Source of the DNA: Verrucomicrobiia bacterium
Lineage (GTDB): Bacteria; Verrucomicrobiota; Verrucomicrobiia; Limisphaerales; Fontisphaeraceae
Direction of reading: 5' to 3'
DNA: 64,000 nucleotides
NCBI GenBank assembly: GCA_026414565.1
Contig: JAOAIT010000044.1
Location: forward strand, 62,001 to 126,000
In this document: positions 28,540-62,831 of the stretch, in pieces
How the letters are laid out: the number at the start of each line of letters is the position of its first letter
Numbering within the stretch: the stretch's first letter is position 1
Position numbers and translations under genes: made by a program
The notes under the pieces: generated by a model
Databases searched by the model: none
Told to the model about the DNA's origin: nothing
The model's input: only the letters and a program-made list of their open reading frames with translations

Positions 28540-31500
28540 ATGGTGCGAGTGGGTGCTCGTTCTAAACCGGCTCGACGTCGCTGGCTGGCAGTACAAGACG
28601 AGCACATGCGGTGGGGTTTGGAATTGCTGGAGCCACGAGTGCTACTTTCGGCGGACATGCCGGGAGCGGTGGTGCCAGAGCTGTGGCCTCCAGAGGTGGG
28701 GGTGGATGGTCTGCAGCCAGCGGGTGAAGAGGAGGTTGCTTACACCTTCGAATCCGCTCCCTCCGTGGTTCAAGAATCGCTGTTGCCGGAAGGGGAGCCG
28801 CTGATTTCGCCGGATGCCAATGGGGGACAGCCTGATTTGGTGGTGGCTTCTGCCACGGTGCCGGCCAACGGTTATGTTCACAGCGTGCCGGTGCAGTTCA
28901 CCGTCACCAATCAGGGCAACGCCGCGGTGGCTGCGACCAATATCTTCAGCCGGATTTTCCTGGCTCGAACCGCCGTTTTTGACCCGGCGAATTACAGTTG
29001 GGATGATGTCCTGGGGCAGAAGAGTGTGCGCTATGATCTGCCGGGTGGAACGCTGGCGGCCGGTGCCAGTTTCACCGTGCAAACGTGGGTCAACCCCGAG
29101 GAGTGGCGCTGGGATACCGCGGCCGGGACGGCGTACGTGCATATTGTGGTTGATTCGGAAGGGTTTGTTGCCGAATCCAACGAGACCAACAACCAGCATC
29201 CGGGGCAGGCCATTCAATTACGGAAAGCATTGATTGATTTGAATCCCACCGGCTTGTCACCGCCGGCCACGGCCAGTATCGGGTCTCCAGTCAATGTTAA
29301 CATTTCCGTGCAAAACTTGGGGAGTGATGAAGCCACGGGCGTGGGTGGAGTGTTGTATGGGCAGGTCTATTTGTCATTGAACAACACCTTGGAGCTGGGG
29401 GGTAACAATCCTGATTTGGCGTTGGGTGCTTTTCCTATTAATAATTTAGCTCCCATTCCTGCCGGGGGCTCGCGCCAGGGCACCTTGGTGTTTGGCGTTA
29501 GCCGTTGGGATAATGTCCAATTGAACACGGACTATTATCTCATCGTCGTGGTCAACGGTTCCGGGACGATGTCCTATGGCACCCGCCAGCCGGAGACCGA
29601 AATGGCCAATAACACCATCGTTTCTTCCGCCACTATGCGCTTTGGCGCGGCTCAGGCTGACTTGACCGTGGTTAGTGCGGATGTGGGCGGACTGACCTCG
29701 GCTCAAGCGGGCCAGACGATCACGGTCTCTTACACCGTGCGCAACATCGGCACCGCCGGGGCGGGGGTGCCGCGTACCATGGAATGGCAGGAAAACTGGG
29801 TGGACGCCATTTATGTTTCCGATGATAACCAGTACGACTCGGGCGATACCCAGGTGCAGGGAGCGTGGGAGGTAATGCGTTATCGGGACATCCTGGGGCC
29901 GGGCCAGCAATACAGCCGGGTGCAAATCCAGGTGATCCTGCCCACGCGTGGCGGGCAATATCTTATTTTCCGGACCGATGACTGGGAGGCGCTGCCGGAA
30001 ACCAACGAAGCCAACAATACCCTAGCGGTGCCGCTGCAGATCAACTTCACCCCGCCGGATCTGGAAATCACCAACGCCCAGATCACCGGCGGCACCGTAG
30101 GCCCCGGCCAGACTATTCAAATATCGTGGACCCTGCGCAACACGGGCGGCAACATTGCCTCCACGTTCAATGATGCCTTTTATCTGTCCAACGACTCGGT
30201 CTTCGATGCGAACACGGATACTTTTCTGACCAATTATTTCCAGTCGCAACCGCTGGCCACCAACCAGAGCCGCACGTATGAGACTTCGCTCTTTCTTCCG
30301 GCTAATGCCATGGGGAGTTACCTGCTGGTGGTAACCGATCGCAACAATGATTTGCCCGAGACCAACGAAAATAACAACGTTTATGCCCTCCCCATCCAGT
30401 TGGCGGCGGCTGATCTCGTGGTGCAATCGGTGAGTGTGACGCCGGTGGTGATCAGCACCACCAGTTTCACTGTTAATTATACCGTGCGAAATCAAGGGAC
30501 GGGCGCCACCTCCGCCAGTTACTGGTATGACGCGGTGTATATCAGTGCGGACAACGTCCTGGACCAGCAGAATGATCTGCTGGTGAGCACCATCTACATA
30601 GCCTCTTGGAATACCTCCCTGCCCGTGGCGGCCAATGGCACCTACAGCAAGCAAGGCACCTTTACTTTGCCGGCGAGTGCACCTTCCGGCCCGGTTTATA
30701 TCTTTGTGGTGACGGATTATAACAATGGGCAGCCGGAGACCAGTGATAGCAACAACGCAGGCAGCACCACGGCCACCATTGGCGCGGGCGATTTGGCGGT
30801 AACCGCCGCGAATGTGTCCCTGGCTGTCCGTCAGGTGGGGAGCGTGGAAGGGTACAGTTGGTATGGGGTTAATCCCCAGTCACCATTTTCGCTGAAGGTG
30901 GGGGAGGCGGTGGTCCTCCAGACCTTGACGACTTTGCATCGGGGGACTGCACCGGCCAACGTGACCCTCACCCTGCGCAACCAGAGCGGCGCGGTGGTAG
31001 GCTCTTGGGCGGCCACCCAGGATGGCAGCAACCCCAATCTGTGGCGGGTGGACGGCTTGAACTTCAACCTGGCGGCCGGGGAGTACACCCTCCACGACAG
31101 CGACCCTTCCACTTGGGTGGCTGATCCATATACCGGCCGGGGCATGGCGTTGGTGACTTTTGCCACGGCCCGCCGTACCACGTCGCCGCTGCAAGTCATT
31201 CTGGGTGAACGGTTATCGGTGACCTGGACGGTCACCAACTCCACGGCGGACGCGATCACCACCACCAGTTGGTCGGATGGCTGGTATTTGTCCAACGATC
31301 CGGTGTATGACACGGGGGACACCTATTTGGAGGCGTTTAGCCGCACCGGTGGTTTGGGGGCTAACGCCAGTTATAATGGGTCGGGGCAACTGACCTTTAC
31401 CGCTCCGGCGGCGGGCACCTACTATTTAATATTAGTCACCGACCGGAGCCAGCAGGTCCGGGAAGTGAATGAAGGCAACAACGCGGGCGTGGCCATTCAG

Positions 31501-34500
31501 GTGCAGGCGATTGCGCCGGATTTGCGTCCCACGGAGCTGCAAATGCCCTCGGTGCTGGTTTTGGGCGCCACCGTGGAGGCCCGTTGGACGGTAATCAACG
31601 AGGGGGTTGCGCCGCTGTGGAGCTATTGGAGCGATGGCCTTTACTTCTCCAGGGACAATCAATGGGATTACAATGATTACTTCCTGACCTCGCCCACCAC
31701 GGAGAACTGGGTTCCCCTGGCTCCGAATGGAACTTACACCTTCACGCAAACTTTTCTCGCCAGTGCCTCCCTGCCGCTGGGAGAGGGTTATTTTATCTTG
31801 AAGGTCAATCAGTCGGGTTACTACGGAGTTTTAGAGAGTGATATGACCGATAACTTCATCGTCCGGCCCGTCACGGTGGTCGCCCCGGATTTGGCGGTGA
31901 CTCGCACGGCGGCGCCGGCCACTATCGCATGGGGGCAGTCTCTGCGAATCACGATGGAGGTGACCAACCAGGGGGTGCATCCGGCATCGAGCTTGTGGTA
32001 TGATGGCCTGATCCTCTCAGAAAATGCCACTTATGAATCGGCAGATTATACTCTGTCCACGAACTGGCGGGGAGAGACCCTGGCGGCGGGGGGTAGTTAC
32101 GAAGCGGTCTTCGAGTTCGTTTTCTCACGCAAAGTAAGTGGCAGTTATTACCTGCTGTTCATGGCGGACCTTTATAATGATCAGGGTGAAACCAACGCGG
32201 GCAACAATCTGGTGGCGGTGCCGGTGACTATTTTGCCCGGGCCGGACCTGGTCGTCACGCAAACCAGCGGCCCGGCCAGCGGCTCGCCCGATGGGGTCAT
32301 TGAAGTGGGCTGGACAGTGACCAATCGGGGCGGGGCCGCGGGGGGCCGATGGCAGGACCTGGTCTATCTCTCGACTGATACCACGGCGGGCGGCGGGGAC
32401 ATTTCCATGGGCTGGACGGATATTTGGGCGGGCGGCTGGCGGGAGGGCCAAAATGCGTTGTTGTTGCCGTCCTATGGAGGCTACGTGAGCACGAATTTGA
32501 ACTTGAACCAGACCACCGCCGGCGGTGGGGTTACCTTTGAGTTGTGGGTTTTCCCCTACAACAACTATCGCAGCGGGGCGCTCCTGAGCACCAACAGCGG
32601 GAATTGGACCTATTTTTGGGCGCTGATGCAAAACGGCCCGACGTGGTCGCTCTGCAATGGCATCCAAGAGATTGACACGGGCTTGCCGGTGCAGGTGGGC
32701 CAGTGGCAGCATCTGGCGGCGGTGTTTGACCCGGCCAACGGGGTGAAGTTGTATCACAGCGCGGTGGCGCAGCCGTTTGTTTCCACCCAGATTGATTTCA
32801 CCAACGACGACGCGGCGCTGACGATTGGGGCCAACCAGGGAGGATACCAGGTTTTTGAGGGGCTGGTGGATGAGGTGCGGGTGTGGAATGGCGTGCGCAG
32901 CGCGGCCCAAATTGCGGCCAACCGGAACACGGTGTTCGGCAGCGGCGAGGCGGGGCTGGTGGGGTTCTGGCGATTTGAGGAGAGCGGCGGCCAGGTGGCG
33001 CAGGATGCCAGCGGTCAGGGCAATCACGGGACGTTGGTGGTGCAATATGGTTACTCGCCGGCGCGGGTGCGGGGGCTGGCCGATGGTTACAGTGTGACGA
33101 GATCCATGCGGCTGCCGACCGAGGCGGCGGCCGGGGCTTATCATTTGTTGTTCGTGACGAACCCTTATGGCGCGCAGCCGGAGACCAACGAGAACAACAA
33201 TCTGGCGAGCCGTCCGCTGGCGATTGAGTCGGCAGATCTGGTGCCTCAAATCCTGTCCGCCCCCTCCACAGCGGCCGGTGGGCAGAACATTCCGTTGAGC
33301 TGGCGGGTGACCAACTCCGGCAGCGGCGCGGCCAACGCCACGTCCTGGTATGACCGGGTGTTTTTATCCAGCGACACCCAATGGGATGCCAATGACACGG
33401 AGCTGTACACCCATTACCGGGATAACGCGGGCGGTTTGGGCGCCGGCGCGGCCTACACGGTCAACGCCAACGTCACCCTGCCGGGCAATGCGGCGGGGGC
33501 GCAATACCTGCTGGTGGTGACCGATTTTTACAATTTCCAGGGTGAGACCAATGAAACCAACAACGTGGCATCCGTAGCGATTGTGTTGAACGCGCCGGAT
33601 TTGGTCATCCCCGCCACGGGGGCGGATGCTCCGGTGACGCCGGCGCGGGCGGTGTTGGGCGATACCCTTACGTTGACGTGGACGGTGCAGAACACCGGGG
33701 CTTATCCCACGCAGGTGGCGTGGTACGACCAGATATATCTCTCGGCGGATGCCGCACTGGACGCGGCGGATGTGTTGCTCGGCTCCTTCTGGCAGGGGGC
33801 GGTGCTGGCGGCGGGCCAGAAGATGGCGCGCAGCGGCAATGTATTCCTGCCGGAGACCACGCTTCTTGGGCCGGGCAAATACCTGTTATTTGTAGCGGAT
33901 GGCGGGCGGCACCAGGGCGAGACCGACGAGAACAACAACGTGGCGGCGGTGGCGATTGAGATTGCCGCACCCGATTTGACGATTGGCAACCTGAATGTGC
34001 CGGCTACGGCGGCGCTGGGGCAGACCATTGAGGTGAGCTGGACGGTGACCAGCGCCAACGAGGCGGCGCGGGCTGACTGGTATGATCATATTTATTTCAG
34101 CGTCAACAACCAGTTGGATGCGGCGGACACCCGGCTGTTGACGGTGTGGACCGGCGATCAGACCCCGCTGGCGGCGGGCCAGAGTTATACCCTGACCCGC
34201 AATGTGACCCTGCCCGCCACGGCGAGCGGCACGTTCTATTTGCTCTTTGTGGCGGATGGCTCGCGGCACCAGGGCGAGACCAATGAGAACAACAACATGG
34301 CGGTGGCGCCCATCACCCTGGTGGCGCCGGACTTGGCGGCTGAGCGCGCCACGGTGCCCGCCACGCTCATCAGCGGGCAGGAATTTCAGTTGTCCTATCG
34401 CGTCGCCAACGTGGGCGGCGCCCCGGCCCTGGCGGGCTGGCTGGATGCCCTCTACCTCTCCACCGATGCCATATTCCAGCCGGGCGCCGATGTGCTCATT

Positions 34501-49500: not shown

Positions 49501-52500
49501 GTGACCATCGCGGTGGACGGCCAGGCCATGGCGCTGGATGCCTTCGGCCGCGCGCGTTTTGTGCCCGCCCAGCCGGGGCAATACACCATCACCGCCACGG
49601 CGCGGGATGTGGACGGCCAGACCGCCTCCGCCACGGCCTTTTTGAAGGTGCGCGATCCCCAGGACACCACCGCGCCGGTGGCGCGCCTGTTGCTTCCGCT
49701 GGGGGCGGTGGTGATCAGTGAACCCACTGATTTGTTCGGGTTGGTGCGCGACGCCAACCTGGACCGCTGGACGCTGGAGCTGCTCCTGCCGGGGCTGAAC
49801 CTGCCGCCGGTGCTGCTGGCCAGTGGCCGCCAGGGCGTCGAGGAAGGCTGGTTGGCGCGGCTGGATCCGGGCCATTTCCTCAATGGTGCGTATGAGTTGA
49901 GGCTGACGGTGCGCGACATCTCCGGGGCGCGCACGGAAGCCAGCCGCTGGATCGAGATACGCTCCGAAAAAGAAGACATCCTGGCTCGCACTGAGAACGA
50001 TGTGACCGTGTCTCTCGGCGGGCTGACCTTTGTCTTGCAGCGGTATTACAACTCCCTGGCCGGCGGGTGGAGTGGATCGTTCGGGGTGGGCTGGAGCGCG
50101 CCGTTGCTGGAGACTTTTGTCATGCTCAATGTGGCCTCGACCGGCGCGGAGAGCCAGGGGTTGTTTAACGGCTTGCGGCCGGACACCCGGGTGGTCATGC
50201 GGCTGCCCGATGGCCGCATGGGCGGCTTTACCTTTGCCCCCATCCGGCAGCAGCAGGGCGGGGTGGTGTGGTATGAACCGGCCTGGGTGCCGGATGCCGG
50301 GGTGAACTGGCAGTTGACCACGCCCGGAGCACTGCTCGAGTTGGCGGGCGGCGTATTTTATCAGCGCGGCACTGGCCTGCCGTATCATCCGGCCAATCCG
50401 CTGCTGGGCGCGGTGGCGTGGCAGTTCACCGACGTGGCCGGCCGGCTGTATCAGTACAACGCCCAGGGCCAGTTGCGGGGTGTGGTGGTCGGCAATCAGC
50501 GGTTGGAGGTGACTCAGGCGGGCATTTTCGCGCCCAACGGCGAGCGGCTGGCCTTCCAGCGCGACGCCGCCGGCCGCATCACGGCGCTGACGCTGCCAGA
50601 TGGCTCGCAGGTGCTTTACACCTACGACACGGCCGGCCGGCTGGCCACGGTGAACAGCCTGGCCGGCGGTGAGCGACGCTGGTATGGTTACGAGACGGCC
50701 AGCGGTTTGCTTAATGTTGTGATCGCACCCACGGGGCAGGCGAGCCTGATGTTTGAGTATGGGGAGCGTGGCCTGATCAACCGCGCCGTGATCTTGAGCG
50801 GCGTGGCCACTTCATTGCGCGAGGCGCTGGCGGCGCCGTTCACCGGCAACCTGGCCGCCGGTCAAACCCGCTATTTTGCCCTGCTGGTCAATCCCACCGA
50901 GCTGGCTTCCTCCGCCACTGGCACCTTGTTGCTGGGTGCCAGCCTGGCGGGCGCAGGCCCGCTGGCTCCGGCCCTGCCGCAGGTGGCGGCCGGTCTGCCG
51001 GAGGCGGCACAGGTGACGTCCAGCCTGGCGCGTGCCTTGTACACCGTGCGCCAGCCCGGGCCGGTCGTTGTGGCCATCAGTGCCGCCAATGGCGCGGCGG
51101 GTTCTTATACGCTGGGCTTCACCCTGCCGGGCGATCTGAATGCTGACGGATTGGTCAACGGCGCGGACAGCGTGTTGTTGGCTGCTGCGTTTGGAACGCA
51201 GAGCGGACAGCCCAATTACACCCTGGCGGCGGATGCCGACCGCGATGGACGGGTGGACGCCTGGGACCGTTATTATTTGGAGCGCAACTTTGGCTTTGCC
51301 GCCAATCGTCCACCCACCGCCCAGGCAGCAACGGCCACCACCTACGCCGGCATTGGGGTGAGCGTGAACCTGGGCCGTTACTCTAGCGATGCCGATGGCA
51401 ACCGGTTGTATTACCGCCTGACCAATGTGACCCATGGCACGGCCGTCCTGGGGGGCGACGGGCAAACGGTCTATTTCATTCCCGCCGCCGGTTATACCGG
51501 CACGGGGGCGGGCTTTGACTTTGTGGCGGACGATGGCGCCGCGCGGTCGGCGGCGGGCCGGGTTAGCATTCAATTATCAAATGCCACGCTCGAGGCGCTG
51601 GTGATCCGCGCCGTTGACGGGGTGCTCAACCTGCCCCGCAACGGCGCGGGGCGGCTGGCGGTGTATGCCCGTTTCTCGGATGGCAACGTGGTGTCCGCGC
51701 CGCCCGGCTTTGTGCAGTGGGAATCCTTGAATCCGGCGGTGGCCATGGTGGATCAAACCGGCGCGGTGTGGGGCCGCGCGGAGGGCGCCGCGACTATTCG
51801 CGCCACCCGGGCCGGAACCACGCTCGCCGCCGCTGCGGCGGTGATGGTGGGGGCGGTGGAGATGCCGGCCCAGGTGGAGATCTACCCCGGGGCGTATGTG
51901 CTGCCAGCCGGGGGCACCCGTGCCATCCTGGTGAATGCCAGAACTGCGTCCGGCAGCCTGGTGGATTGGTCGCCGGCATCCACCGGCACCACCTACACCA
52001 GCGGCAACACTGCGGTGGTGACCGTCAGCGCGGACGGCCTGGTGACCGCTGTCGGTTTGGGCACGACGACGGTCACGGTGATTCATGAGGGCGTGCGTCG
52101 CGAGCTGGCGTTCACTGTGGCCACCACGGTGCCCAGCGGCTCGGTGGTGGGTTCGGCGGGCGGCATAGTCCAGAATGCGGATCAAATCAGCGTTGCCGTG
52201 CCGCCGGGGGCTTATGTGGCGGGTGCCATCTCGGTCACCACCTTGAACCAGAGCCAGTTGGGGTTGGGCCTGCCGGCCGGGTTTAATTTCATCCGGGCCC
52301 TGAATTTAGGGCTACCCACCGGCGCACCCGGCCAGGCGCTGGGCCTGAGCGTGCCCACCGGCCTGGCAGCGGGCGAGAGCCTGTACGTTTTCCGGCTGGG
52401 GACGATGTTGATGGCGGACGGCACCACGCAAACGGCGTGGGAATTGGTGGATACGGCAGTCGTGGGCGCCGATGGCCGTGCCCAAACCACCTCGCCGCCG

Positions 52501-55500
52501 TATGCGGGCGTGCAGGCCTCCAGCCAGTTCTTGTTTGCGCGAAACGACCAGGTTCGCTGGTTCCGGCTGACGGAGTACTACGACAACTCCAACATTGAAG
52601 TCATCACCAGCGGCGCCGAGGGGCAGCGGGCTTATTTTGTGCGGCCCAATGCCTTCTATGGCGGGTTGTATCCGCTGCCGGCCAATGCCGTGGCCATCCG
52701 GGTGTGGCGGTTTGCCGCCGACGGCTCGGCGCGCGACGCCCAGGGCAACGCGACGGTGGGCACGGCGGTGGTCGAGCTGCCTCCGGTGGGCGGTGTGTTT
52801 GTAACGCACGTGGCCGTGCCCGATCCGAATTTCACCGAGCAGATCCCATATATCAACGGCGCGCAAATTGCGTGGGTGCCCAACGCTGGCGGGGTGGTCA
52901 CGGGCACGGTGACCATCCAGGGTCAGAACTTCGGCACCAATAAGAATGATCTGACGATCATCTTCATCCGCGACTCGCTTTTCCGGCTGGCCAACTTCGA
53001 TGCAGGCGGCTACCTGCCCGGTGACTTCTATCGCGTGGACGGCAGCCAGTTGACGGCGGTTACCGACAATACGATCACCCTGGCCCTGCCCAACATTCCG
53101 GGGCTGGCACGGTACTCCATCCTGGTGGAGCGCAAGTTTGAAGTGTGGCAGTGGCAGGGCGGCCGCGATCCGCAACGGGCGTATGTGACCAAACGCTCGC
53201 CGTTTGATCAGAAGCCCACCGTGGCCCCGCCCAGTTACGTCTGGGTGGCCAATAACTCAACGAACACCGTTACGGTGATCAATCCGCTGGCCGCCAACGG
53301 CCCGGCGGTGGTGCTCAACATCCCGGTGGGACGCGGCCCGACTGGCGTGGCGGTGACAAATGACGGCCTGCTGGCACTGGTGGTGAACACCACGGACGCC
53401 ACGGTCTCCTTCATTGACACCATCACGCTGCGCGAGATTGACCTCGATCCCAATGACTCGGAGCCGTTGACCCGCCTGAAGCTGCCGCGGGGCGGCCTGC
53501 CGTGGGACATTGCGATCCATCCGGGGCAGACGGAGCAGCGGGCTTTCATAGCGGACCGGGCGGGGCCGTATGTCTATGAAATCTCGACACGGCTGCCGGG
53601 CAGCAGCGGTCTGTACCATGCGTACACCGTCCATCGCATCGAGGCGCCGGTGCCTCTCAGCGGCCTGACGGGCATCACGGTGACCGGCACGGCCCAGAGT
53701 GCGACGCATTACCTCGTCGTCACCTCACCGGGCCGCGCGCCGTATTATGGCGGAGACCTTGTTGTGGAGCCGGGTTACCTTTTTGCCGCGCGGCTGCCGT
53801 TGTATTCGCAACAGGCGCTGAAATTCCAATCCTTGATGCTGGGCGCCAAACCGTTTGGCGTGGAACCGGGCCGCACGCCCACCGAGGTGGGCGTGGCGAT
53901 TCGCGCCCGCGATCCGGTGGGGCTGACGATGGTGAACTTGGAGACCATGAGCATCACCCGCACCGTGGGCATGGACTTTTCCCCGGCGTGGCAAATCCGG
54001 CGGCAGTATGACCGCAGTGTGGACGCCACGGTGAACAACGTTTATCTGGGCGTGTATTCGGCGTTCCTGGATCCCGGGTTCCAAAATCAATTGGTGCTGG
54101 CGCTCGGCCGGCAGTGGGATGCGAGCAAATACTTTGACATCAACAATATCGAGGACGTGATCTTCGTCCGCGTGGGTGGCCGCGATTATGCGCTGGTGCT
54201 GGGCAACTGCACTTTCAACGGAACGGATGATTTCACGCGGGATCCATTCCTGGGCCACGGCTCCAACATCGGCATTGTGCGCGATCCGTTCACCGCGCAG
54301 GCGAAGCTGATTGCCGCCACGCGCGAGGTGCCGCGGGCCTGGGCGGATCAACTGACCCTTGATCCGTACGGGTTGTATGTCATGGCCACCTTCAAAGGTG
54401 TCAACGAGGTGCACTATTACGCGGTGAACGAGCTGATTGCGGCGGCGGAGGCCATGGCAGCCGACGTGGGGGACAACATCCGCACGTCGGTGGACGTTTA
54501 TGCGGACCAGAAGGGCTTGCGCCTGACCCGGGGCGTCGTCCGCAATGCCTGGCTGGGCAAGCCCACGGGCATCGCCTCCAGTCCCGCCACGGCCACGGAG
54601 CTGCTGGCGCTGAACATGGCTTATTATCCCCGGTACGAGGCGAGCGGCGGCCGGCCGGCGTTGGTGATCGAATATCTGTTGTACGGCAAACCGCTCGATC
54701 CGCGCCAGACACCGTTGCGCCTCACGGTGTACTCCATGCGCACCGCCCAGTACGAGGATGGCACGTTCATCCCGGACAGCTCCACCTATAGCGCGCTGCT
54801 GACCAATGACGTGTATTATCAACCGGGCCGCCATAGCTATGTGCTGCAACTGCCGGCCGAGCTGCCGGTTGCCAACAACGTCTGGTATGTCGCCCGGCTG
54901 GACTCCGGCAACGTGGTGGCCGAGCTGGACGAGAACAACAACGATGTGGCGGTGCAGGTGCGCAGCGGCGCCTTGGTGGCGGCGTATGACGGCAATCCGG
55001 ATCTCGCTGTGTTCGGCACGTACATCCAGGGCGAGGCCTTCAACAACAAGTTCACCCTGAGTCTGCATGCCGAGGTGGCGCGCAACGCCGGTACGGTGAG
55101 CATATTCCTTGGCGGCAAGGCGGTGCCGCTGGTCTCGCAGGGCAACGGCGTTTATGAGTTCACGCTGGCCATGGAAACCCTGGTGGCCGGCCGGACCCCG
55201 CTGCGCTACACCGTGCTGGATCGCCAGGCCCGCACGCTGGTGGATGAAACCACCTTCATCGAGGTGCTGCCCGTGCCACAATGGATGGCGCCGGTGCAGA
55301 CACCGGCGCGGCAGCGGAGCATCGCCTGGGACGCGACCCTCAATGGCGGCCTGGGTGGCTACTGGTTCTTTGCGGCGGATTATCCGCTCTCCTACACCAC
55401 CACCATTTCGCCCAACGCGCCAAGTTTCCTGGCCAACCGCACCATGGCCTTCGGCCTGGGGGCGCATCTGTGGATGGCCATCGGCCTGGACGGCAAAGTT

Positions 55501-58500
55501 ATATGGCAGGACGCCGGTCCGAGCCTTTATGTGACGATTTTGGACTTCCAGGTGATGGACGCCAACCTGCCCGGCAGCATGTTCTTCAGCCTCCTGCCGG
55601 AGGGGCTTGAGGAAATCACCTTCACCGGCCGGTCTCTGGAAAATCACCCGATAGCTTCGTGGCTCATGACTTTGATTCCAGCGATGAAGGTCAGCGAGAC
55701 GAAGTTTGGCGATTTGAGCGGGCTGGCGGGCCTGTTGGAGCGCGGGGCCAAAACGGAAGGTGTGACGGAGAGCACGGGGGTATGGGATTTGTTCCGCCGG
55801 GGCGCCAGCGATTACAGCTCCACCGAGGAAGCGCGCCAGCGTCTCGGCCAGTGGCAGGAGCCGGTGGACGATGAGGCTCAATGGGAGAAATCGCTGACGA
55901 TCAAGCACAAGCCGTTCAAGCTCAACGAGCGGCTGGAGCTGACCGAGGGCGAGTTGAGCGTGAGCTTCAGTTGGAGTCTCAAGTTGTTGTCAGTGGAAAT
56001 GAGCTGGCCGCTCTATGGCCTGCCCAAGGTGGGGGCCATCAACGCCGTCATGGAGATCGAGGGCCAACTGGGCTTCAGCCTGGGCGGCGAAATCAAGGTG
56101 GCCAATGGCGATTTGAGCGTGACGCCGGTGAAGTTCACCGCCGAGGTCACCGGCACCGTGTCGGCCGGGGTTAAGGCTGAGGTGCTGGGCGTCGGCGCCA
56201 AGCTGGTCCTGAGTGCGGAGCTGAAGGCGTCGTTGGAGTATGCGCCGTTCAACACGCCGAGGTTCAAGATCACCTTCCCCTTCGAGCTGAAGTACACGAC
56301 CTCGTATGACGTGTTGATTACTTCGGGTGACATCAAGAGGCTCAGCGGCACCCTGCTCAAAACGGAGGACTTGCTGCAATTCCCCTATGGCTTCCAATGG
56401 ATGCCCGCCGATGGGCTGGTGGCGGAAGACCTGGCGCGCAATGACACCTTTGGCCGCGCCGCCCCGCTGGGGGTGCTTAACGGTGACACCCAATCGCGGC
56501 CCGAACTGCACGCGCTCCTCAGCGCTCTGCGGCTGGCCAATCCCGCGGATGCGGACTACTTCAGCTTCCGTACTTTGGCGGCGGGCGGCGAGGATGACGC
56601 GGTGACCCTCAACTTTGCGATGAGCAATCCGAATGTGCGGGCCATGTTGCTGGATGGCGCGGGCACGCCGGTGGCCTTGATGACCATGACCAATGCCACC
56701 ACCGGCCGCCTCTCGCTGCGGGGGCTGCCGGCGGGCTTGTATGTGTTGTACGTGCAAAGTGGTGAGAGCCTGGGCTTGAACTATGGTCTGCGGGTGCAGG
56801 CCCCGGTGGTTGCCGGCCCGGCTCTCGTGGCGGAATTGACCACCAGCAACAATGGCTTGGTTTTGCCGGGCCAGGCGATCCCGCTGACCCTGCGCATCAC
56901 CAACTACGGACAATCTGCCGCCCCGGCCAGCCAGGCCGCGCTGCAATGGAGCGCCGATGCCCAGTTCAATGCCGCCAACGCCCTCCTGGCCGGACCGTGG
57001 AGTGTGCCCGCTCTGGCGGCCGGCCAGACGTGGGAACAAACGCTGTCCGTCACGCTGCCAGAGCGGTTGGTGGGGCCGGTGTACCTGGGCTTGAGCGCCG
57101 ATCGGCGCGGGGTGGTGCCGGAACTGGTGCGCGAGGACAACCTGGCGGTGCTCCGCTTCGAGGCCACGCTGGCGCCAGACCGTTTCGAGGCGAACGAGTC
57201 TCCATCGCAGGCGGCACACCTGGGCGGGTTGGTGGCCTCGCGCGAATGGAGCGGGTTGACCTTGCATCACTTGGGTGATCAGGACTGGTACCGCTTCCAG
57301 CTTGCCCAGACCGGCACGGCGTCTGATCGTGTCAGCGTCACCCCGCAGGACACTTTGCAACGCCTGCACGTGGCCTTGTATGACGCCGCGGGCGTGCTGC
57401 TGCGCCAGTCCGGTGCCGCCGCAGGTGGCGCGGTAACGCTGTCCCTGCAAAATCTGCCGGCGGGCGATTATTATCTGCGGGTATTGCCCGGTGAGGCGGG
57501 CATTACGTACACCCTGAAACTGGAAAGCGCCGAACGGGCGCTGTCCAACCTGGCAATCGAGGGCCTGGCCCTGCCGGCGGAATTGCGCGCGGGTAACGGC
57601 CTTGACCGGGCCACGGTGGTGGTGTCCAACTACGGCGCAGCGCCCGCCCGCTCGTTCGGCGTGGCGGTCATCCTGGTGGACGGTGGCACTGAATATGAAC
57701 TGGCGCGCACGACGGTGGACATTCTGGCGGCGGGGCAGACGGCAGAACTGAACCTGCCGCTGCAGGTGAACGGCACATGGAACCTGGGGAGCAACCTGCA
57801 ACTGCGGGTGGTGGTGGACGATGCGGCGGTGGTCGCCGAATTGAATGAAGGCGACAACAGGCGCGCCACGAGCATCACCGTTGCCCGCAACCAGGACGCG
57901 CAGGAGGTCCAGGAGACCGGCGTGGAGGGCTGGCTGGATTTGGGGGTGATGCGCGGCGCACAGACCACCACGGGGCGCAACCTGCACAGCCCGCAGGATG
58001 TGGATCTGATGCGCTTCCGCCTCCTGGCCACGGGAGGCGCGGCGGACGCCATCACTTTGACGTTTAATGCGGCCACCAGCGGGATGACGGCGGTGTTGCT
58101 TGACGGCAATATGCAGTTTGTGGCGCTGGCCAGTGAAGTGACGCCCGGCACGCTGCGGCTCAGCCTCGAAGGCCGCGCGGCAGGGGCCTATTACCTGTTG
58201 GTCAATGGCGCCGCGGCGCCGCTGCCCTACACAGTGCAATGGCAGACCCCTAATCCTTCCGGCGCCAACCTGGCGGTGGAGAGTCTGGATGCCAACCGCT
58301 ATTACGTTAGCGGCAGCCTTTCGGTGACGGCGCGCTTTGCCAACTTTGGCAATGCCGCTGCCGGGGCATTCAAGATTCGGTATTTCGCCTCCACCGACGC
58401 GACGATTGATCCCAATACCGACACGCCGTTGACCGGCCTGATTTCGGTGGATGGCCTCGCGGCGGGCGCCGCGGCGACGGACACCCGCGAGCTGGATTTA

Positions 58501-58632
58501 AGCGCGTTGCCGCCGGGCGAGTATTACCTCGGCATTATCCTGGACCCGGTGGGGGTGCTGACGGAGACCAGCCGGGCGGACAACGTCGGGCGTGTGGCGG
58601 TGGAGCGCGTGTCGGCCACAGGGAATCCATGA
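28540..58632 (+). CDS. Giant LEPR-XLL, multi-CARDB modular surface protein (10,030 aa)
   Basis: One uninterrupted frame of 10,031 codons; ATG at 28540 with GAAG six bases upstream. There is no ordinary signal peptide: a basic start leads to LEPRVLLSAD at residues 30-39, the LEPR-XLL motif found at the N-terminus of very large exoproteins. Domains in order (approximate residues): about 33 CARDB units (99-4711) with a LamG-like insert at 1301-1517; IPT-like (4826-4917); unrecognised helical part (5044-5264); beta-propeller (5601-5857); SbsA-type Ig (5858-5967); nine cadherin/He_PIG-type Ig units (6077-6951); YD/RHS segment (7147-7421); dockerin-like calcium loops (7530-7588); BIG2 (7684-7864); IPT (8098-8201); YncE-like propeller (8231-8637); unrecognised beta-rich part (8921-9294); then PPC and CARDB modules alternating to the end. 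It probably acts in adhesion, matrix formation or binding of large substrates outside the cell. No C-terminal sorting signal is visible. The 177 bases upstream are AT-rich, without a clear promoter. Confidence 0.93.
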   Translation: MVRVGARSKPARRRWLAVQDEHMRWGLELLEPRVLLSADMPGAVVPELWPPEVGVDGLQPAGEEEVAYTFESAPSVVQESLLPEGEPLISPDANGGQPDLVVASATVPANGYVHSVPVQFTVTNQGNAAVAATNIFSRIFLARTAVFDPANYSWDDVLGQKSVRYDLPGGTLAAGASFTVQTWVNPEEWRWDTAAGTAYVHIVVDSEGFVAESNETNNQHPGQAIQLRKALIDLNPTGLSPPATASIGSPVNVNISVQNLGSDEATGVGGVLYGQVYLSLNNTLELGGNNPDLALGAFPINNLAPIPAGGSRQGTLVFGVSRWDNVQLNTDYYLIVVVNGSGTMSYGTRQPETEMANNTIVSSATMRFGAAQADLTVVSADVGGLTSAQAGQTITVSYTVRNIGTAGAGVPRTMEWQENWVDAIYVSDDNQYDSGDTQVQGAWEVMRYRDILGPGQQYSRVQIQVILPTRGGQYLIFRTDDWEALPETNEANNTLAVPLQINFTPPDLEITNAQITGGTVGPGQTIQISWTLRNTGGNIASTFNDAFYLSNDSVFDANTDTFLTNYFQSQPLATNQSRTYETSLFLPANAMGSYLLVVTDRNNDLPETNENNNVYALPIQLAAADLVVQSVSVTPVVISTTSFTVNYTVRNQGTGATSASYWYDAVYISADNVLDQQNDLLVSTIYIASWNTSLPVAANGTYSKQGTFTLPASAPSGPVYIFVVTDYNNGQPETSDSNNAGSTTATIGAGDLAVTAANVSLAVRQVGSVEGYSWYGVNPQSPFSLKVGEAVVLQTLTTLHRGTAPANVTLTLRNQSGAVVGSWAATQDGSNPNLWRVDGLNFNLAAGEYTLHDSDPSTWVADPYTGRGMALVTFATARRTTSPLQVILGERLSVTWTVTNSTADAITTTSWSDGWYLSNDPVYDTGDTYLEAFSRTGGLGANASYNGSGQLTFTAPAAGTYYLILVTDRSQQVREVNEGNNAGVAIQVQAIAPDLRPTELQMPSVLVLGATVEARWTVINEGVAPLWSYWSDGLYFSRDNQWDYNDYFLTSPTTENWVPLAPNGTYTFTQTFLASASLPLGEGYFILKVNQSGYYGVLESDMTDNFIVRPVTVVAPDLAVTRTAAPATIAWGQSLRITMEVTNQGVHPASSLWYDGLILSENATYESADYTLSTNWRGETLAAGGSYEAVFEFVFSRKVSGSYYLLFMADLYNDQGETNAGNNLVAVPVTILPGPDLVVTQTSGPASGSPDGVIEVGWTVTNRGGAAGGRWQDLVYLSTDTTAGGGDISMGWTDIWAGGWREGQNALLLPSYGGYVSTNLNLNQTTAGGGVTFELWVFPYNNYRSGALLSTNSGNWTYFWALMQNGPTWSLCNGIQEIDTGLPVQVGQWQHLAAVFDPANGVKLYHSAVAQPFVSTQIDFTNDDAALTIGANQGGYQVFEGLVDEVRVWNGVRSAAQIAANRNTVFGSGEAGLVGFWRFEESGGQVAQDASGQGNHGTLVVQYGYSPARVRGLADGYSVTRSMRLPTEAAAGAYHLLFVTNPYGAQPETNENNNLASRPLAIESADLVPQILSAPSTAAGGQNIPLSWRVTNSGSGAANATSWYDRVFLSSDTQWDANDTELYTHYRDNAGGLGAGAAYTVNANVTLPGNAAGAQYLLVVTDFYNFQGETNETNNVASVAIVLNAPDLVIPATGADAPVTPARAVLGDTLTLTWTVQNTGAYPTQVAWYDQIYLSADAALDAADVLLGSFWQGAVLAAGQKMARSGNVFLPETTLLGPGKYLLFVADGGRHQGETDENNNVAAVAIEIAAPDLTIGNLNVPATAALGQTIEVSWTVTSANEAARADWYDHIYFSVNNQLDAADTRLLTVWTGDQTPLAAGQSYTLTRNVTLPATASGTFYLLFVADGSRHQGETNENNNMAVAPITLVAPDLAAERATVPATLISGQEFQLSYRVANVGGAPALAGWLDALYLSTDAIFQPGADVLIEQWSAAERVPLAAGANYSAIRTVRLPGVTAGTYYLILVTDATATQGESNEDNNARASDPVIITVPDLTVTAVSVPASASPNQTITVSWTVANTGTVAAPADWWDGIYLSADDVWDEGDTRLARRDMAALTPLAAGATYTAQAQVTLPALPVGNYYLIIRVDDAGHQGESNEANNTRASTVIRVEAPDLRVTNGLGPAQAAAQQTITVSWTVTNAGPGVASATWRDGIYLSNDNRLTGDDLLVTTFDMSSQSPVAVNGSYTRTEQVTLPAAASALHQYLLVVVDAQQQQGETDETNNYFAISITILPPPDLRLTGATSPATAAVGQWIEVAWTVTNQSSSTAFADWVDRVYLSNDNQWSQDDLLLGSVLVAAQTPLAGGANYSLSAQVRLPMNAVGAKFLIIRVDADNQQVEAEETANNFVVRPITVTDPDLVITASTAPATASWGQRVTIGWTVTNQGTGAAMGTWVDRVYLSADATLDPNTDLLVLEHWAGNAALAAGAAYEVSREVTMPSGLTGEVRFIFVTDARQEQAESNENNNVRVHPGATSFNAADLVVSAAGAPAVLAWGERIAVSWTVTNGGTGQAMASWWDAVYLSLDNVLDSGDTILASVWRSSGTPLNPGASYEVNLGTGGVAAIPAAIGTGARFLIFHTDTGNTQLESDNANNTRVVPVEVRAPNLVFAAGTTLPATLESGKPATLNWTVQNTGTGRATTGWVTVVLLSTDAVPSADDLILGTFSRTEVLDAGATLADTRTVQIPGGLTGSRHLLLVVDHYQNQPESNENDNVLARAVSLSAPDLALSNVAFRSDNANPQVFANGNTLTVEWTTTNTGSAPADRVWGERVVLTKDAFLGNFDDILVGHVTQNTPLAAGASVSRSVSVQLPWGVEGAYTLVIRVDVWNEQPEVNENNNRHDAPLTIVYATPPADLVVETVVGPETALTGAAIAVSWRVVNQGTAATTAARWQDQVYLSADDTFGNDRLLGTFERNGALASGANYGQQVTVILPEDLTAGTYWLFVVTDAANWLNEPGAENNNTTRSLGPVTVALAPVPDLVVASVTSTATAVAGQTATVTWTVRNDGAAATGRAWVDRLYFSSNGQVQGAAYLGEFTRPNDLAPGAVYSVERTVTVPLLADGSYQWLVVTDATGQVFERGGENNNQGVSAAVTLLHPDLEVTTASTVAAAQSGTQITVNWTTRNSGTGVTGGQWVERIYLSTDGTLSGEDVLLGSRERVGALAAGASYNASLPVTLPNGINGAYFLIVQTDATGVIAEGAAYETNNTRASNAVTVTLAPFTDLAVSGVLTQPLVVGDPADLSVTWTVTNVSSQVGPVDTWVDRVVLSRNATLGDNDDLVIGEFTHTGLMPAGTSYTLTRIMTLPPATEGRFTLFVVTDATDVVYEHTNTGPNSASPGHVVDIVPRPYADLRVTSVTASATDTGGGPLNNGDTLTISWSVINAGPADGGNSIGQTSVPEWYDQVWLARNADGSGPLISLRSFSRVGHLAVGASYTRTAEVTLPADASGTYYLVLRTNSNNNVYEFIYGGAANTAVSAALTVTYVPPPAVDLEVTNVVVPTLPVPDGSAIDVTWTVRNNQVDDALGTWTDIIYIAPNGNLSQKIEIGRFTLTQGVGAGRSYTRTENFRLPQHISGVYQVFVHTDGRNELLETNENNNATILEPLTVQLRPRPDLQVTTLTVPETVTAGAVIDVEWVVSNLGTVATPTGGSRWFDGVYLSLNNTWDGGDWLLAWVQNGSALGPGEQYRSTGAYRLPAAVGGPMYILVVADAGGAVDEFPNEGNNVLARPVFVDVTPVPPPDLVVSDVAGPTEAFDGTTITVTYRVTNRGAGVTYPAAWMDALWLTNDKRRPGGPEDILIGTAWHTGALQVGESYVGTITGKLPEHFSGVYELMVYTDSSNAVYELTFDVNLNPDDPNALDNNNFKTAATGPMTVIYTPPADLEVVDVRVPATAVRGERITVTWTVKNNGANATDLDRWADAIYLSTDPVLHDNQGQQWMVFGLLHEGRLDRGQSYTQTATFTLPPGLDAAYVIVETNVEPKKILTEEVLLLREMSELSGRIAERIGDVNNMSMAEVNARLDALTLNDIKYILWGDKKVEKVWEGPFTNNNTRPAACAVLGGWADLAVTNVTVPAGAFSGESLTISWTVTNVGAVPVYRGTERWRDYVYLSPDASFIYNRATALGNVVHTQTATGLLRPGESYTVTHTFTLPPGVSGRQFIYVFSDRDPRKESPDYPWGPVPIDALLSGDLQFPDWPSYIQDRVWEGPPENKRNNVASAQTTVTFREPDLRVLPGSLVIPATANSGQTIDIRWTVENAGTRVTRTDYWVDRVYISTDASLDRYDLMIGEYRRREVLEAGATYTVNTTVRLPDDIQGRFYLLVYIDSPYGPDRNLPWALPYPTAVGAARIEGPSPATEWNLMANVKEFHLEANNITATPVQVTLVNLPDLQVTQVGFDGGPDAGAGHAITGRQFTVTYTVTNLGNGAVPDRQGQWTDHLYLSRDKFLDVRSDHFLGSVDHTGVLNSNGTYTVTATFFVPRGLLGPYYVMVLTDVTSTSKPYGIVYEGANEGNNSSASVAPMIIDQAPPTDLVVDEVTVPATGAASQPVTLTYTVRNATTNNERARGYWADALYLSDDAVWDLGDKLIGRVELEPVPGQPGKFRPIYRDLAPGQSYTGTLTALLPAVLPGQYRVIVRTDIFDDIYEAQNNANNRRASSDTMTVTVPRLQFGRPATGTIAAGQELLFEVEAPYGETMEINLVAADKTAANELYVLYEGLPNSIRYDAAFEGHLWSDQTARVPLTKAGKYYILVRCASAAGPTEVTVSARLLPFGIRTVTPDTGGDSRYVTLEVRGARFAENAILKLVRPQFGEYEPVNYRVVDATRIIGVFDLRNAPHGLYDVVVINPGGQVAVMPYRYLVETAQPLSLTVGMGGPNEIEFGQVGWYGFGVYSLTNVDAPYVHFEFGLPRVVDGAGGYMSWAEWVRAELGDPNFPVGDPLIFRTNLTGAPNVAGVPWASLDSILNLNGQLLASGFTFDFVNRGFMALTFTADVRPEMRDVLKVNPKALKELKEDPLGLYEDLTFKFWIAAAATPMTSTEYIAYQTGVAERYRQAILADPNAPQALLMAAANASQWTTLYLAGLRDAGQLRPEDTPPAVNLLPATSSLMSIITAGLLGVDTQGRIIQAGNLVEFFNLVRKWYGHDATRVGDPNVLPTRQQFDLGLTHETHFEAFWVHGGIFDEGGGPAIQTPNLGSFFGGTGTVSDLVRMVGPTGYGAENFVPTATYLPYQITFRNAADSTQAIKQIQIRQQLDEDLDVRSFQLGDILLGDIQIHIPAERGSFSGDFDFTKELGFVVRVTAGVDVVSRIALWNIVALDPMTGLPPTDPSVGLLKPDVDGSQRGVVSYLIKDWPAYTQGVVHETGLSIDAAARVVFDNGTPLDTNTHTATLDVRAPVTSLTVTDLGVDTQDRRSYRLSFNATDDAGGSGVKDYTIYLALDGGAWQVWQRRTTQREFLYVTPAGATAQFIVLAADNAGNVEEPPGGQVVPAYNPGVNLGNLPTASTLGATVTLPLATPVTTPSTNPLFLQALQQIPAGQSATRPARFATVFEPFVLGVFAWDFASSGANIGPLGMAFAPDGQTVFISGGAGRNQIWKFGPGGGSANVAPWATLPVPVYDMQFDAAGRLWATTGGGPLIEIDPVSGAILGRYGDGITLGLAVHPTSGLIYTAASSGVLIFNPATRQFAGFSSTRVYDLAFAPDGRLYGTTWPDDGKVVRFDARGNAEIFLIPAQPANGLAFGLPGTPLANLLFLNHGGTGALTMVDLVNGRSIDVAQGGVRGDFLAVSPQGRLFVTQGDQVLTFFPRTPPVVVAMTPVNQSRVLPVVNQVTLRFDTEMLDAGAVAGSVTNPAYYSVQRLSDSQPVRITRVVYDAATRSAVVQFEPLAEGAYRVRVSAEVRSALGVAMTAPVTAEFTVLPDLTLMVPPEITNVRLNLQTQTVLFDVRVVNPFGYELLAPYRLYFTGLAGTTAVVVGADGVSDEGVPYVNLSGPATLAAGQATEYRTVRVYNPDGLSFQLLSRVSITAAANAAPVIASTPPTTATRGMPYTYQVAATDAEGGDLIYLLVAGPAGASLHPATGLLAWTPGASAAAVETFEVRVFDARGAAAVQRWTVTVANANQAPFMLPIADVSLTEGALLELAVGATDADNDALSFWAGNLPPGAVFDAQNNILRWQTRGDSAGRYEGVTVYVSDGRVTVSRSFTVVVANLNQPPVIAPMMDRTIAEGQLVSFAVPGSDVDGDALTYTLLNPPLGGELNPVTGVFTWRPAYNQHGVYALNFQVSDGVATANRTVTLTVLNVNGPVYFEPVDRWDILEGQAMSVVLTVVDPDHPMGVGAPLADGSADNDFLRPDLTWSYDTLPAGAEFNPNTGLFRWKPGYQQAGTYNLRFTVTDDGDGTGQPASAMVTLQIRVRDANAPPQIPALANVRLAVGERLVIPVSVTDADGVAGLTLSMGGLPGFGLPAWATFVDLGNGRGTLTVEPTLTQQRGDHTFTLSAMDNGNGDPRAALTAVKSFIVTVVAPNARPQFAHVPTQVVAVVGQTLTLEVTVSDLDEDPLTWSATNLPPGATFAGLTVYGTARLTWTPAAGNMGTHTVTLRVTDSGNGDAARALSDERAVQVVVRAANQAPLLLPIGARTVTEMQTLNFTLRAVDADNDLLTYSVSRLPRGAEFNPVTGVFTWTPSYDQAGAYSLRFAVTDGSASSAEQMVITVTNTNRAPQFVPINDSLALENNLLQFAVLAGDLDGDPLAYSLVGAVVNGQVVNPPRGVTFDAATRMLTWTPGFDQAGVYVLRFSARDPGGLAATADARIEVLNVNQAPVVERMSGHVVRVNQPFQMQVPARDPDTGTVLAYTIEGLPEGATFSASGLLAWTPRPSQAGAYDLRVRVSDGELEAFGNLRLVVSETPIPPALTIEMTPSFAVTPGQAVFIHALAGGIADLAAVTIAVDGQAMALDAFGRARFVPAQPGQYTITATARDVDGQTASATAFLKVRDPQDTTAPVARLLLPLGAVVISEPTDLFGLVRDANLDRWTLELLLPGLNLPPVLLASGRQGVEEGWLARLDPGHFLNGAYELRLTVRDISGARTEASRWIEIRSEKEDILARTENDVTVSLGGLTFVLQRYYNSLAGGWSGSFGVGWSAPLLETFVMLNVASTGAESQGLFNGLRPDTRVVMRLPDGRMGGFTFAPIRQQQGGVVWYEPAWVPDAGVNWQLTTPGALLELAGGVFYQRGTGLPYHPANPLLGAVAWQFTDVAGRLYQYNAQGQLRGVVVGNQRLEVTQAGIFAPNGERLAFQRDAAGRITALTLPDGSQVLYTYDTAGRLATVNSLAGGERRWYGYETASGLLNVVIAPTGQASLMFEYGERGLINRAVILSGVATSLREALAAPFTGNLAAGQTRYFALLVNPTELASSATGTLLLGASLAGAGPLAPALPQVAAGLPEAAQVTSSLARALYTVRQPGPVVVAISAANGAAGSYTLGFTLPGDLNADGLVNGADSVLLAAAFGTQSGQPNYTLAADADRDGRVDAWDRYYLERNFGFAANRPPTAQAATATTYAGIGVSVNLGRYSSDADGNRLYYRLTNVTHGTAVLGGDGQTVYFIPAAGYTGTGAGFDFVADDGAARSAAGRVSIQLSNATLEALVIRAVDGVLNLPRNGAGRLAVYARFSDGNVVSAPPGFVQWESLNPAVAMVDQTGAVWGRAEGAATIRATRAGTTLAAAAAVMVGAVEMPAQVEIYPGAYVLPAGGTRAILVNARTASGSLVDWSPASTGTTYTSGNTAVVTVSADGLVTAVGLGTTTVTVIHEGVRRELAFTVATTVPSGSVVGSAGGIVQNADQISVAVPPGAYVAGAISVTTLNQSQLGLGLPAGFNFIRALNLGLPTGAPGQALGLSVPTGLAAGESLYVFRLGTMLMADGTTQTAWELVDTAVVGADGRAQTTSPPYAGVQASSQFLFARNDQVRWFRLTEYYDNSNIEVITSGAEGQRAYFVRPNAFYGGLYPLPANAVAIRVWRFAADGSARDAQGNATVGTAVVELPPVGGVFVTHVAVPDPNFTEQIPYINGAQIAWVPNAGGVVTGTVTIQGQNFGTNKNDLTIIFIRDSLFRLANFDAGGYLPGDFYRVDGSQLTAVTDNTITLALPNIPGLARYSILVERKFEVWQWQGGRDPQRAYVTKRSPFDQKPTVAPPSYVWVANNSTNTVTVINPLAANGPAVVLNIPVGRGPTGVAVTNDGLLALVVNTTDATVSFIDTITLREIDLDPNDSEPLTRLKLPRGGLPWDIAIHPGQTEQRAFIADRAGPYVYEISTRLPGSSGLYHAYTVHRIEAPVPLSGLTGITVTGTAQSATHYLVVTSPGRAPYYGGDLVVEPGYLFAARLPLYSQQALKFQSLMLGAKPFGVEPGRTPTEVGVAIRARDPVGLTMVNLETMSITRTVGMDFSPAWQIRRQYDRSVDATVNNVYLGVYSAFLDPGFQNQLVLALGRQWDASKYFDINNIEDVIFVRVGGRDYALVLGNCTFNGTDDFTRDPFLGHGSNIGIVRDPFTAQAKLIAATREVPRAWADQLTLDPYGLYVMATFKGVNEVHYYAVNELIAAAEAMAADVGDNIRTSVDVYADQKGLRLTRGVVRNAWLGKPTGIASSPATATELLALNMAYYPRYEASGGRPALVIEYLLYGKPLDPRQTPLRLTVYSMRTAQYEDGTFIPDSSTYSALLTNDVYYQPGRHSYVLQLPAELPVANNVWYVARLDSGNVVAELDENNNDVAVQVRSGALVAAYDGNPDLAVFGTYIQGEAFNNKFTLSLHAEVARNAGTVSIFLGGKAVPLVSQGNGVYEFTLAMETLVAGRTPLRYTVLDRQARTLVDETTFIEVLPVPQWMAPVQTPARQRSIAWDATLNGGLGGYWFFAADYPLSYTTTISPNAPSFLANRTMAFGLGAHLWMAIGLDGKVIWQDAGPSLYVTILDFQVMDANLPGSMFFSLLPEGLEEITFTGRSLENHPIASWLMTLIPAMKVSETKFGDLSGLAGLLERGAKTEGVTESTGVWDLFRRGASDYSSTEEARQRLGQWQEPVDDEAQWEKSLTIKHKPFKLNERLELTEGELSVSFSWSLKLLSVEMSWPLYGLPKVGAINAVMEIEGQLGFSLGGEIKVANGDLSVTPVKFTAEVTGTVSAGVKAEVLGVGAKLVLSAELKASLEYAPFNTPRFKITFPFELKYTTSYDVLITSGDIKRLSGTLLKTEDLLQFPYGFQWMPADGLVAEDLARNDTFGRAAPLGVLNGDTQSRPELHALLSALRLANPADADYFSFRTLAAGGEDDAVTLNFAMSNPNVRAMLLDGAGTPVALMTMTNATTGRLSLRGLPAGLYVLYVQSGESLGLNYGLRVQAPVVAGPALVAELTTSNNGLVLPGQAIPLTLRITNYGQSAAPASQAALQWSADAQFNAANALLAGPWSVPALAAGQTWEQTLSVTLPERLVGPVYLGLSADRRGVVPELVREDNLAVLRFEATLAPDRFEANESPSQAAHLGGLVASREWSGLTLHHLGDQDWYRFQLAQTGTASDRVSVTPQDTLQRLHVALYDAAGVLLRQSGAAAGGAVTLSLQNLPAGDYYLRVLPGEAGITYTLKLESAERALSNLAIEGLALPAELRAGNGLDRATVVVSNYGAAPARSFGVAVILVDGGTEYELARTTVDILAAGQTAELNLPLQVNGTWNLGSNLQLRVVVDDAAVVAELNEGDNRRATSITVARNQDAQEVQETGVEGWLDLGVMRGAQTTTGRNLHSPQDVDLMRFRLLATGGAADAITLTFNAATSGMTAVLLDGNMQFVALASEVTPGTLRLSLEGRAAGAYYLLVNGAAAPLPYTVQWQTPNPSGANLAVESLDANRYYVSGSLSVTARFANFGNAAAGAFKIRYFASTDATIDPNTDTPLTGLISVDGLAAGAAATDTRELDLSALPPGEYYLGIILDPVGVLTETSRADNVGRVAVERVSATGNP
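28834..42672 (+). repeat. Tandem CARDB-domain repeat array (about 33 units)
   Basis: Repeating unit of about 121-122 residues (363-366 bases) inside the giant gene. The consensus runs: PDLxVT...PATA...GQTIxVSWTVTNQGTG, then WxDxVYLSxD, then LAAGxSYTxT, VTLPA, GxYYLLVxTD, and a closing ETNExNN. Conserved aspartates at successive DL positions 34330, 34696, 35059, 35425 and 35788 show the regular period. Units 12-18 (about 33967-36520) are the most uniform; the first eight and the last eight vary more in length. CARDB is an Ig-like, often calcium-influenced adhesion module in bacterial and archaeal surface proteins. Confidence 0.9.
46770..49390 (+). repeat. Nine tandem cadherin/He_PIG-type Ig units
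   Basis: Nine units of roughly 90-110 residues inside the giant gene, each opening with N-x-x-P (NAAPVI, NQAPFM, NQPPVI, NGPVYF, NAPPQI, NARPQF, NQAPLL, NRAPQF, NQAPVV). Most have the calcium-site-like D-x-D-x-D (DADNDAL, DVDGDAL, DLDEDPL, DADNDLL, DLDGDPL) and close with a strand such as GVFTWTPSYDQAG. They form a second rod-like section downstream of the CARDB array. Confidence 0.85.
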
Positions 58633-61301: not shown

Positions 61302-61328
61302 CGCTTTTAGACTCCCGCGGGGCAGGCT

Positions 61329-61853: not shown

Positions 61854-61865
61854 GGCATGGGCGAT

Positions 61866-62795: not shown

Positions 62796-62831
62796 GCAAT
62801 CTCCGCCGCCATCAGGTTTACCTGGGAGGTC

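Follow-up and report, generated by a model that had tools for sequence, protein, structure and literature searches.

A 30-kb LEPR-XLL Gene from a Verrucomicrobiia Bacterium and a Candidate Exporter Cluster with a SecA-like ATPase

Introduction

How might a protein of some 10,000 residues be exported when no signal peptide is evident? The question is raised by a gene in the 64,000-nucleotide stretch of Verrucomicrobiia DNA analysed here (the window), the product of which carries a LEPR-XLL motif near its N-terminus. The first-pass annotation had drawn attention to this protein as one of the larger bacterial proteins, but its size is ordinary for the LEPR-XLL proteins, for which 5000–20,000 residues is usual and which reach 20,882 residues. 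With an N-terminal motif scoring above the cut-off and a very long modular build, the giant resembles the described LEPR-XLL proteins (NF012209, LEPR-8K), and adds a new member to this known family rather than differing from it in kind. Proteins of more than 5000 residues, as the window's giant also is, have been catalogued in a survey that noted the PVC superphylum as enriched (PMC11573180); the same survey makes no mention of LEPR or of the exporter cluster considered below (PMC11573180). We found no description of an export route for the LEPR-XLL family in the literature searched, where the export of such giants without an evident signal peptide appears to be undescribed.

Integrity and Start of the Giant Gene

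The ORF listing and translation confirmed the single frame previously noted, which is open for 10,030 codons with no internal stops. We considered the possibility that this 30-kb frame was an assembly fusion of several genes, a worry voiced in the first-pass annotation, or a decaying gene. Long repetitive genes are prone to misassembly, and the genome from which the window derives is a 4.3-Mb draft in 71 contigs. However, a closed genome of the same genus (G001, one 4.73-Mb contig) contains an ortholog of 10,022 residues that is collinear with the giant and 85.5% identical to it over ≈10,010 aligned residues, with few short gaps. The flanks are also collinear, including a gene of 705 and 757 residues, respectively, directly after the giant and genes farther on, and dN/dS between the two orthologs was 0.04–0.16 in all full 500-residue bins. 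A TRF scan found no DNA tandem array; the CARDB units described below are therefore diverged at the DNA level. Because the ortholog in a closed genome is intact and collinear, the flanks are syntenic and dN/dS is low throughout, fusion was rejected, and we regard it, like decay, as having a negligible probability. Judged by these comparisons, the 30-kb gene is real.

The frame is probably somewhat longer than the gene. Conservation between the two orthologs extends from Met23 (MRWGLELLEPRVLLSAD) onward, whereas out-of-frame indels of 1 bp and 2 bp separate the two genomes in the DNA just upstream of position 28606. Because of this pattern, the true start probably lies 22 codons after the start of the frame, so that the length first reported holds for the open frame, but the protein itself would comprise 10,008 residues.

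Modular Organization

The features of the giant and its surroundings are listed in Table 1. The LEPR-XLL start claimed for the protein was borne out by NCBIfam model NF012209, which scored 20.1 bits against a cut-off of 17 in the protein scan and 28.2 bits when the genome was scanned. With a profile made from the giant itself, we obtained 37 significant CARDB matches, in agreement with the ≈37 units estimated earlier. However, two of these matches (residues 1235–1327 and 1462–1556) are the halves of one unit with a Laminin_G_3 domain between them, and the number of units is thus 36, comprising the 33 of the long array and three more at residues 9427–10017. The Ig arrays and the YD segment were recovered with Pfam and NCBIfam models (He_PIG/Big_9, Big_2, Big_5 and RHS/YD). 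Two propeller-like stretches were found where two propellers had been proposed, although the matches are weak, and PPC-like matches do alternate with the last CARDB units, but lie below the PPC gathering score. The earlier description of the modules was thus mostly right, except that it had missed the type I dockerin and the inserted Laminin-G domain. There are 4 cysteines in the 10,030 residues.

Table 1. Features of the giant gene, its companion and the exporter cluster. Positions are those of the window unless a genome and contig are given; aa, residues of the giant.
Feature	Position	Strand	Basis
Giant gene	28540..58632	+	Frame 10,030 aa; probable start 28606, giving 10,008 aa
LEPR-XLL motif WGLELLEPRVLLSAD, aa 25–39, proposed export leader	28612..28656	+	NF012209 above cut-off; 39-sequence consensus
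Array of 33 CARDB units, aa 98–4707	28831..42660	+	Pfam CARDB and self-built profile
Laminin_G_3 inserted in ninth CARDB unit, aa 1313–1459	32476..32916	+	Pfam 4e-20; split CARDB matches
Propeller-like stretch, extent approximate	45529..45837	+	Weak SSL_N, Reg_prop and WD40 matches
Big_5 Ig-like domain	46099..46428	+	Pfam 4e-7
He_PIG / Big_9 / PKD Ig-like array, extent approximate	46470..49635	+	Pfam He_PIG and Big_9, several stretches
YD/RHS segment	49993..50709	+	DUF6531, RHS_repeat, TIGR01643 YD repeat
Type I dockerin-like domain	51127..51288	+	Pfam Dockerin_1 1.2e-8
Big_9 and Big_2 Ig-like domains	51304..52083	+	Pfam
Second propeller-like stretch	53236..53445	+	Weak TIGR03866 / TIGR02276 matches
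C-terminal block in which three CARDB units and PPC-like modules alternate	56818..58590	+	Self-built profile; CARDB, weak PPC
Companion gene, 705 aa	58629..60746	+	ORF/translation; Pfam; conserved in G001
Five-gene cluster, complete, window's genome	G000:C20:1962-10647	-	Homologs of cluster genes
Five-gene cluster, complete, G001	about C1:838,944-847,485		Homologs of cluster genes

The CARDB, Laminin-G, Ig, YD and dockerin modules, together with the purifying selection on the gene, suggest that the product is extracellular, a modular chain of great length that probably forms an adhesive rod or scaffold and would reside at the cell surface. The long fibre or scaffold first suggested for the protein is plausible on the strength of its domain names.

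The LEPR-XLL Motif

From 39 sequences, we derived the consensus [FY]-x-[LVI]-E-x-L-E-[PQ]-R-[IVL]-[LM]-L-S-[AG]-[DE], located near the N-terminus. A simple hydropathy scan revealed no long hydrophobic core near the motif, in line with the earlier remark that an ordinary signal peptide is lacking. LEPR genes were present in 24 of the 388 genomes sampled across the phylum, and some genomes encode several: there are four LEPR proteins in G001, the largest of 20,882 residues, all on its one closed contig, and nine in G042, of up to ≈18,000 residues.

A Candidate Exporter Cluster

The survey of secretion genes next to LEPR-XLL genes that had been proposed with the first-pass annotation was carried out here, and it pointed to a cluster encoding a TolC protein, an HlyD adaptor, a GAF-HlyD adaptor, an M50 protease-HlyD protein with an N-terminal PqqD/RRE-like domain (M50-HlyD) and a truncated SecA-like ATPase. 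When the 3' flanks of LEPR genes were read, the LEPR giant was followed by TolC, HlyD, GAF-HlyD, M50-HlyD and SecA-like genes in two genomes (G148 and G329), and in several phyla a LEPR giant has the cluster directly before or after it. In both genomes of the window's genus, all five cluster genes are present, but they are not adjacent to the LEPR genes (Table 1). Giants with a closely linked exporter could differ in their route from that of the window.

Co-occurrence of LEPR-XLL Genes and the Cluster

We scored the exporter as present when a genome had a strong M50-HlyD match (≥250 bits, a line drawn after the score distribution was known). Counts are given as genomes with both LEPR and exporter, LEPR only, exporter only and neither, and the Fisher p values ignore shared ancestry, although the positives are spread over many families. 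The counts were 12/3/2/41 in the order sample of 58 genomes (p = 4e-8), 22/2/2/362 in the phylum sample of 388 genomes (p = 2e-31) and 33/5/4/402 for the Verrucomicrobiota combined (p = 4e-40). As a control, 55 further genomes of the phylum had only weaker M50-HlyD paralogs, and LEPR genes occurred in one of them; these paralogs may serve exporters that recognize another leader motif. In the analysis as a whole, the genomes that break the pattern, several of which are incomplete, have either LEPR genes without the exporter (G005, G045, G056, G176, G275, G523, G583 and G623) or the exporter without LEPR genes (G013, G053, G143, G352 and G672). The SecA-like gene was found in exactly those 14 of the 58 genomes of the order that have M50-HlyD, and is additional to canonical SecA.

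The association extends beyond the phylum. From a scan in which an M50-HlyD alignment was run against named genomes, 80 loci were kept; by their record titles, they represent Verrucomicrobiota, Planctomycetota, Lentisphaerae, Kiritimatiellae, Elusimicrobia, Nitrospirota, Spirochaetales, Fibrobacter, Desulfuromonadales and other deltaproteobacteria, Magnetococcales, alpha-, beta- and gammaproteobacteria, Omnitrophota and Rokubacteria. Of the 80 loci, 69 have the SecA-like gene and 73 have GAF-HlyD. Many of the loci are short, and a convincing LEPR open frame was seen in 16 of the 80, often right after the SecA-like gene; when 50 genomes with the exporter, drawn from at least 10 phyla, were searched whole, LEPR genes turned up in 45. 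An independent replication, this time with linkage, came from the family to which Shimia gijangensis belongs, the Rhodobacteraceae, with 198 genomes. The counts there were 17/3/1/177 (p = 1e-20), 16 of 23 LEPR genes lay within 10 kb of M50-HlyD, and three genomes had two LEPR giants, each adjoining its own M50-HlyD.

Because the motif and the cluster are inherited together in many phyla, the cluster is probably how LEPR-XLL giants leave the cell. The co-occurrence and linkage also make it very probable that LEPR-XLL is part of an export route, as first surmised. More specifically, we consider it likely that a dedicated TolC/adaptor/SecA-like exporter, encoded elsewhere in the genome in the case of the window, uses the motif as its export leader, and that the giant is a long modular extracellular protein.

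Classical type I secretion, in which an ABC transporter, HlyD and TolC would export the giants by a C-terminal signal while LEPR-XLL served as a retention module or in some other capacity, could account for the RTX-like repeats that end some LEPR proteins (on contig C17 of the window's genome and in G016 and G050) and for the Vibrio LEPR giant with C-terminal RTX reported previously (PMC10868602). However, the type I HlyD model TIGR01843 scored above its curated cut-off in none of the 58 related genomes, and on this ground the route was rejected. Moreover, Pfam and NCBIfam scans gave no RTX match in the window's giant, and the presence of LEPR genes follows the SecA-like/M50 cluster. This route thus appears quite improbable.

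Components of the Exporter

The TolC-family protein is an outer-membrane channel by its Pfam match (OEP, 5e-42 in G148), with homologs in both genomes of the window's genus. None of the NCBIfam models matched by the M50-HlyD and SecA-like proteins of G148, which for the latter included all of the SecA and SecA2 models, reached its curated cut-off. The catalytic motifs of the two families are intact: HEFGH and NPLxRxDGYY are invariant in 14–15 M50-HlyD sequences, and the motor motifs MATGEGKT, DEAD and NMAGRGTDI are conserved in 15 SecA-like sequences. The SecA-like alignment stops near residue 770 of the 1045-residue canonical SecA, leaving the protein without the helical wing, the two-helix finger and the C-terminal linker. 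Since it ends about where the wing and the two-helix finger would follow, its partner may be something other than SecYEG; without the two-helix finger, motor activity on polypeptides is not assured. In a tree in which canonical SecA was represented by Limisphaerales, the SecA-like proteins were separate from it.

In RiPP pathways, it is the RRE domain that binds the leader peptide. The PqqD profile matched the first 110 residues of M50-HlyD in 42 of 57 sequences at E-values of up to 1 (best 2e-9); the match for the protein from the window's genome (0.0026) was below the gathering score. A profile search of PDB sequences with the M50-HlyD N-terminus ranked PqqD (3g2b) first, at E = 0.054. An AF2 model of the N-terminal domain (pLDDT 86.5) had as its best structural matches the RRE–leader complexes 5v1u, 6jx3 and 5v1v, with probabilities of 0.98–1.00, TM-scores by target of 0.64–0.70 and E-values of about 0.02–0.04, none below 0.001. 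Foldseek of the whole M50-HlyD model returned adaptor matches only. The membrane protease of M50-HlyD resembles the daptide HExxH protease (170 bits).

The giants might instead carry an unusual signal and be moved by SecYEG and the housekeeping SecA, with the cluster acting only at the outer membrane or on other, co-occurring cargo. Canonical SecA is indeed kept in all adequately complete genomes, and the companion gene downstream of the giant looks Sec-secreted. However, the simple hydropathy scan showed no long hydrophobic core near the LEPR motif, the SecA-like motor of the cluster occurs in precisely those genomes that have M50-HlyD, and LEPR giants are tightly linked to the cluster in the Rhodobacteraceae. 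We therefore consider Sec export unlikely.

Proposed Export Mechanism

With a dedicated exporter as the preferred reading, the parts suggest the following scheme. The PqqD/RRE-like N-terminal domain of M50-HlyD would bind the LEPR leader in the cytoplasm, and the SecA-like motor would feed the unfolded giant, N-terminus first, through a conduit of adaptors and TolC; the scarcity of cysteines in the giant would be in keeping with an unfolded exported chain. The M50 site may trim the leader, and the modules of the giant would fold outside the cell. Leader binding, the threading and its direction, and leader cleavage are what we infer from the domains and motifs of these proteins. In its most general form, the proposal is of an undescribed and widespread machine, consisting of the SecA-like motor, the RRE-M50-adaptor protein, further adaptors and TolC, that would read LEPR-XLL as an N-terminal leader and thread proteins of up to ≈20,000 residues through both Gram-negative membranes; we incline toward this, with a confidence somewhat better than even.

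Comparison with Known Systems

No description of the cluster was found in the open-access papers searched. The exporter would be a new assembly of known parts. It shares a TolC-family outer-membrane protein and HlyD-family adaptors with type I secretion (ABC-HlyD-TolC), but in place of an ABC transporter the cluster has the SecA-like ATPase and the RRE-M50-adaptor protein, and the proposed signal is N-terminal. As in accessory Sec (SecA2) systems, a second SecA-type ATPase is added beside housekeeping SecA. In contrast to SecA2, however, this ATPase is below all NCBIfam SecA/SecA2 cut-offs, stops short of the helical wing and the two-helix finger, and is linked to TolC and adaptors, with no SecY seen in the cluster. 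M50-HlyD has its PqqD-like N-terminal domain and its similarity to the daptide protease in common with RiPP systems, in which leader recognition is combined with M50 maturation proteases, whereas the proposed substrate here has thousands of residues, rather than being a small modified peptide, and the protease carries a fused HlyD adaptor domain.

If the proposal is correct, it would describe a secretion route built from a Sec motor, RiPP leader recognition and TolC exporters, and would give the LEPR-XLL motif a function in at least 10 phyla. Since the association names specific genes and motifs, the export question can be put to a direct test in those cultivable marine bacteria that have a giant beside its own exporter.

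Companion Genes and Other Observations

The companion gene directly after the window's giant overlaps its stop codon (ATGA) and encodes a protein with a signal-peptide-like N-terminus, a Big_9 domain and three DPDGDGRNNLQEY repeats. In 32 LEPR 3' flanks read by eye (L033, L038, L040–L051, L053–L072; the window's own companion, 58629–60746, was also included in the survey), about half, as a raw proportion, had directly after the giant a gene in the same direction, the product of which looks secreted and varies in content. A 4-bp overlap (ATGA) of the companion with the stop of the giant was seen in eight cases, that of the window among them. An F-[YF]-R motif stands at the end of many companions, and the Pfam contents of the companions include Big_9, GEVED/IgGFc-binding/HYR and GH127. 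The idea that the coupled downstream gene might itself encode the exporter was rejected, as the companions are varied secreted-looking proteins and not transporters. After giant and companion, on the opposite strand (60765–63998, −, and onward), lie genes that by eye, from their translations, resemble a membrane-bound hydrogenase or complex I-like cluster; these are collinear in G001.

The 20,882-residue LEPR frame of the closed genome (G001 C1:958911–1021559, L029–L032) is, to our knowledge, among the longest bacterial proteins. Tandem LEPR giants recur in several families of the phylum (L054, L061, L064, L072, L059 and G001 C1:958911–1042856), a protein of 13,000–21,000 residues being followed by a second LEPR protein, mostly 36–125 bp later. 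A planctomycete draft (G481, the genome of L155) had 22 LEPR matches, compared with 1–9 elsewhere. Finally, there is a LEPR gene on a contig with the title Akkermansia muciniphila, and its motif is almost the same as the one in a Comamonadaceae record (L132/L133); this contig may have been mis-binned.
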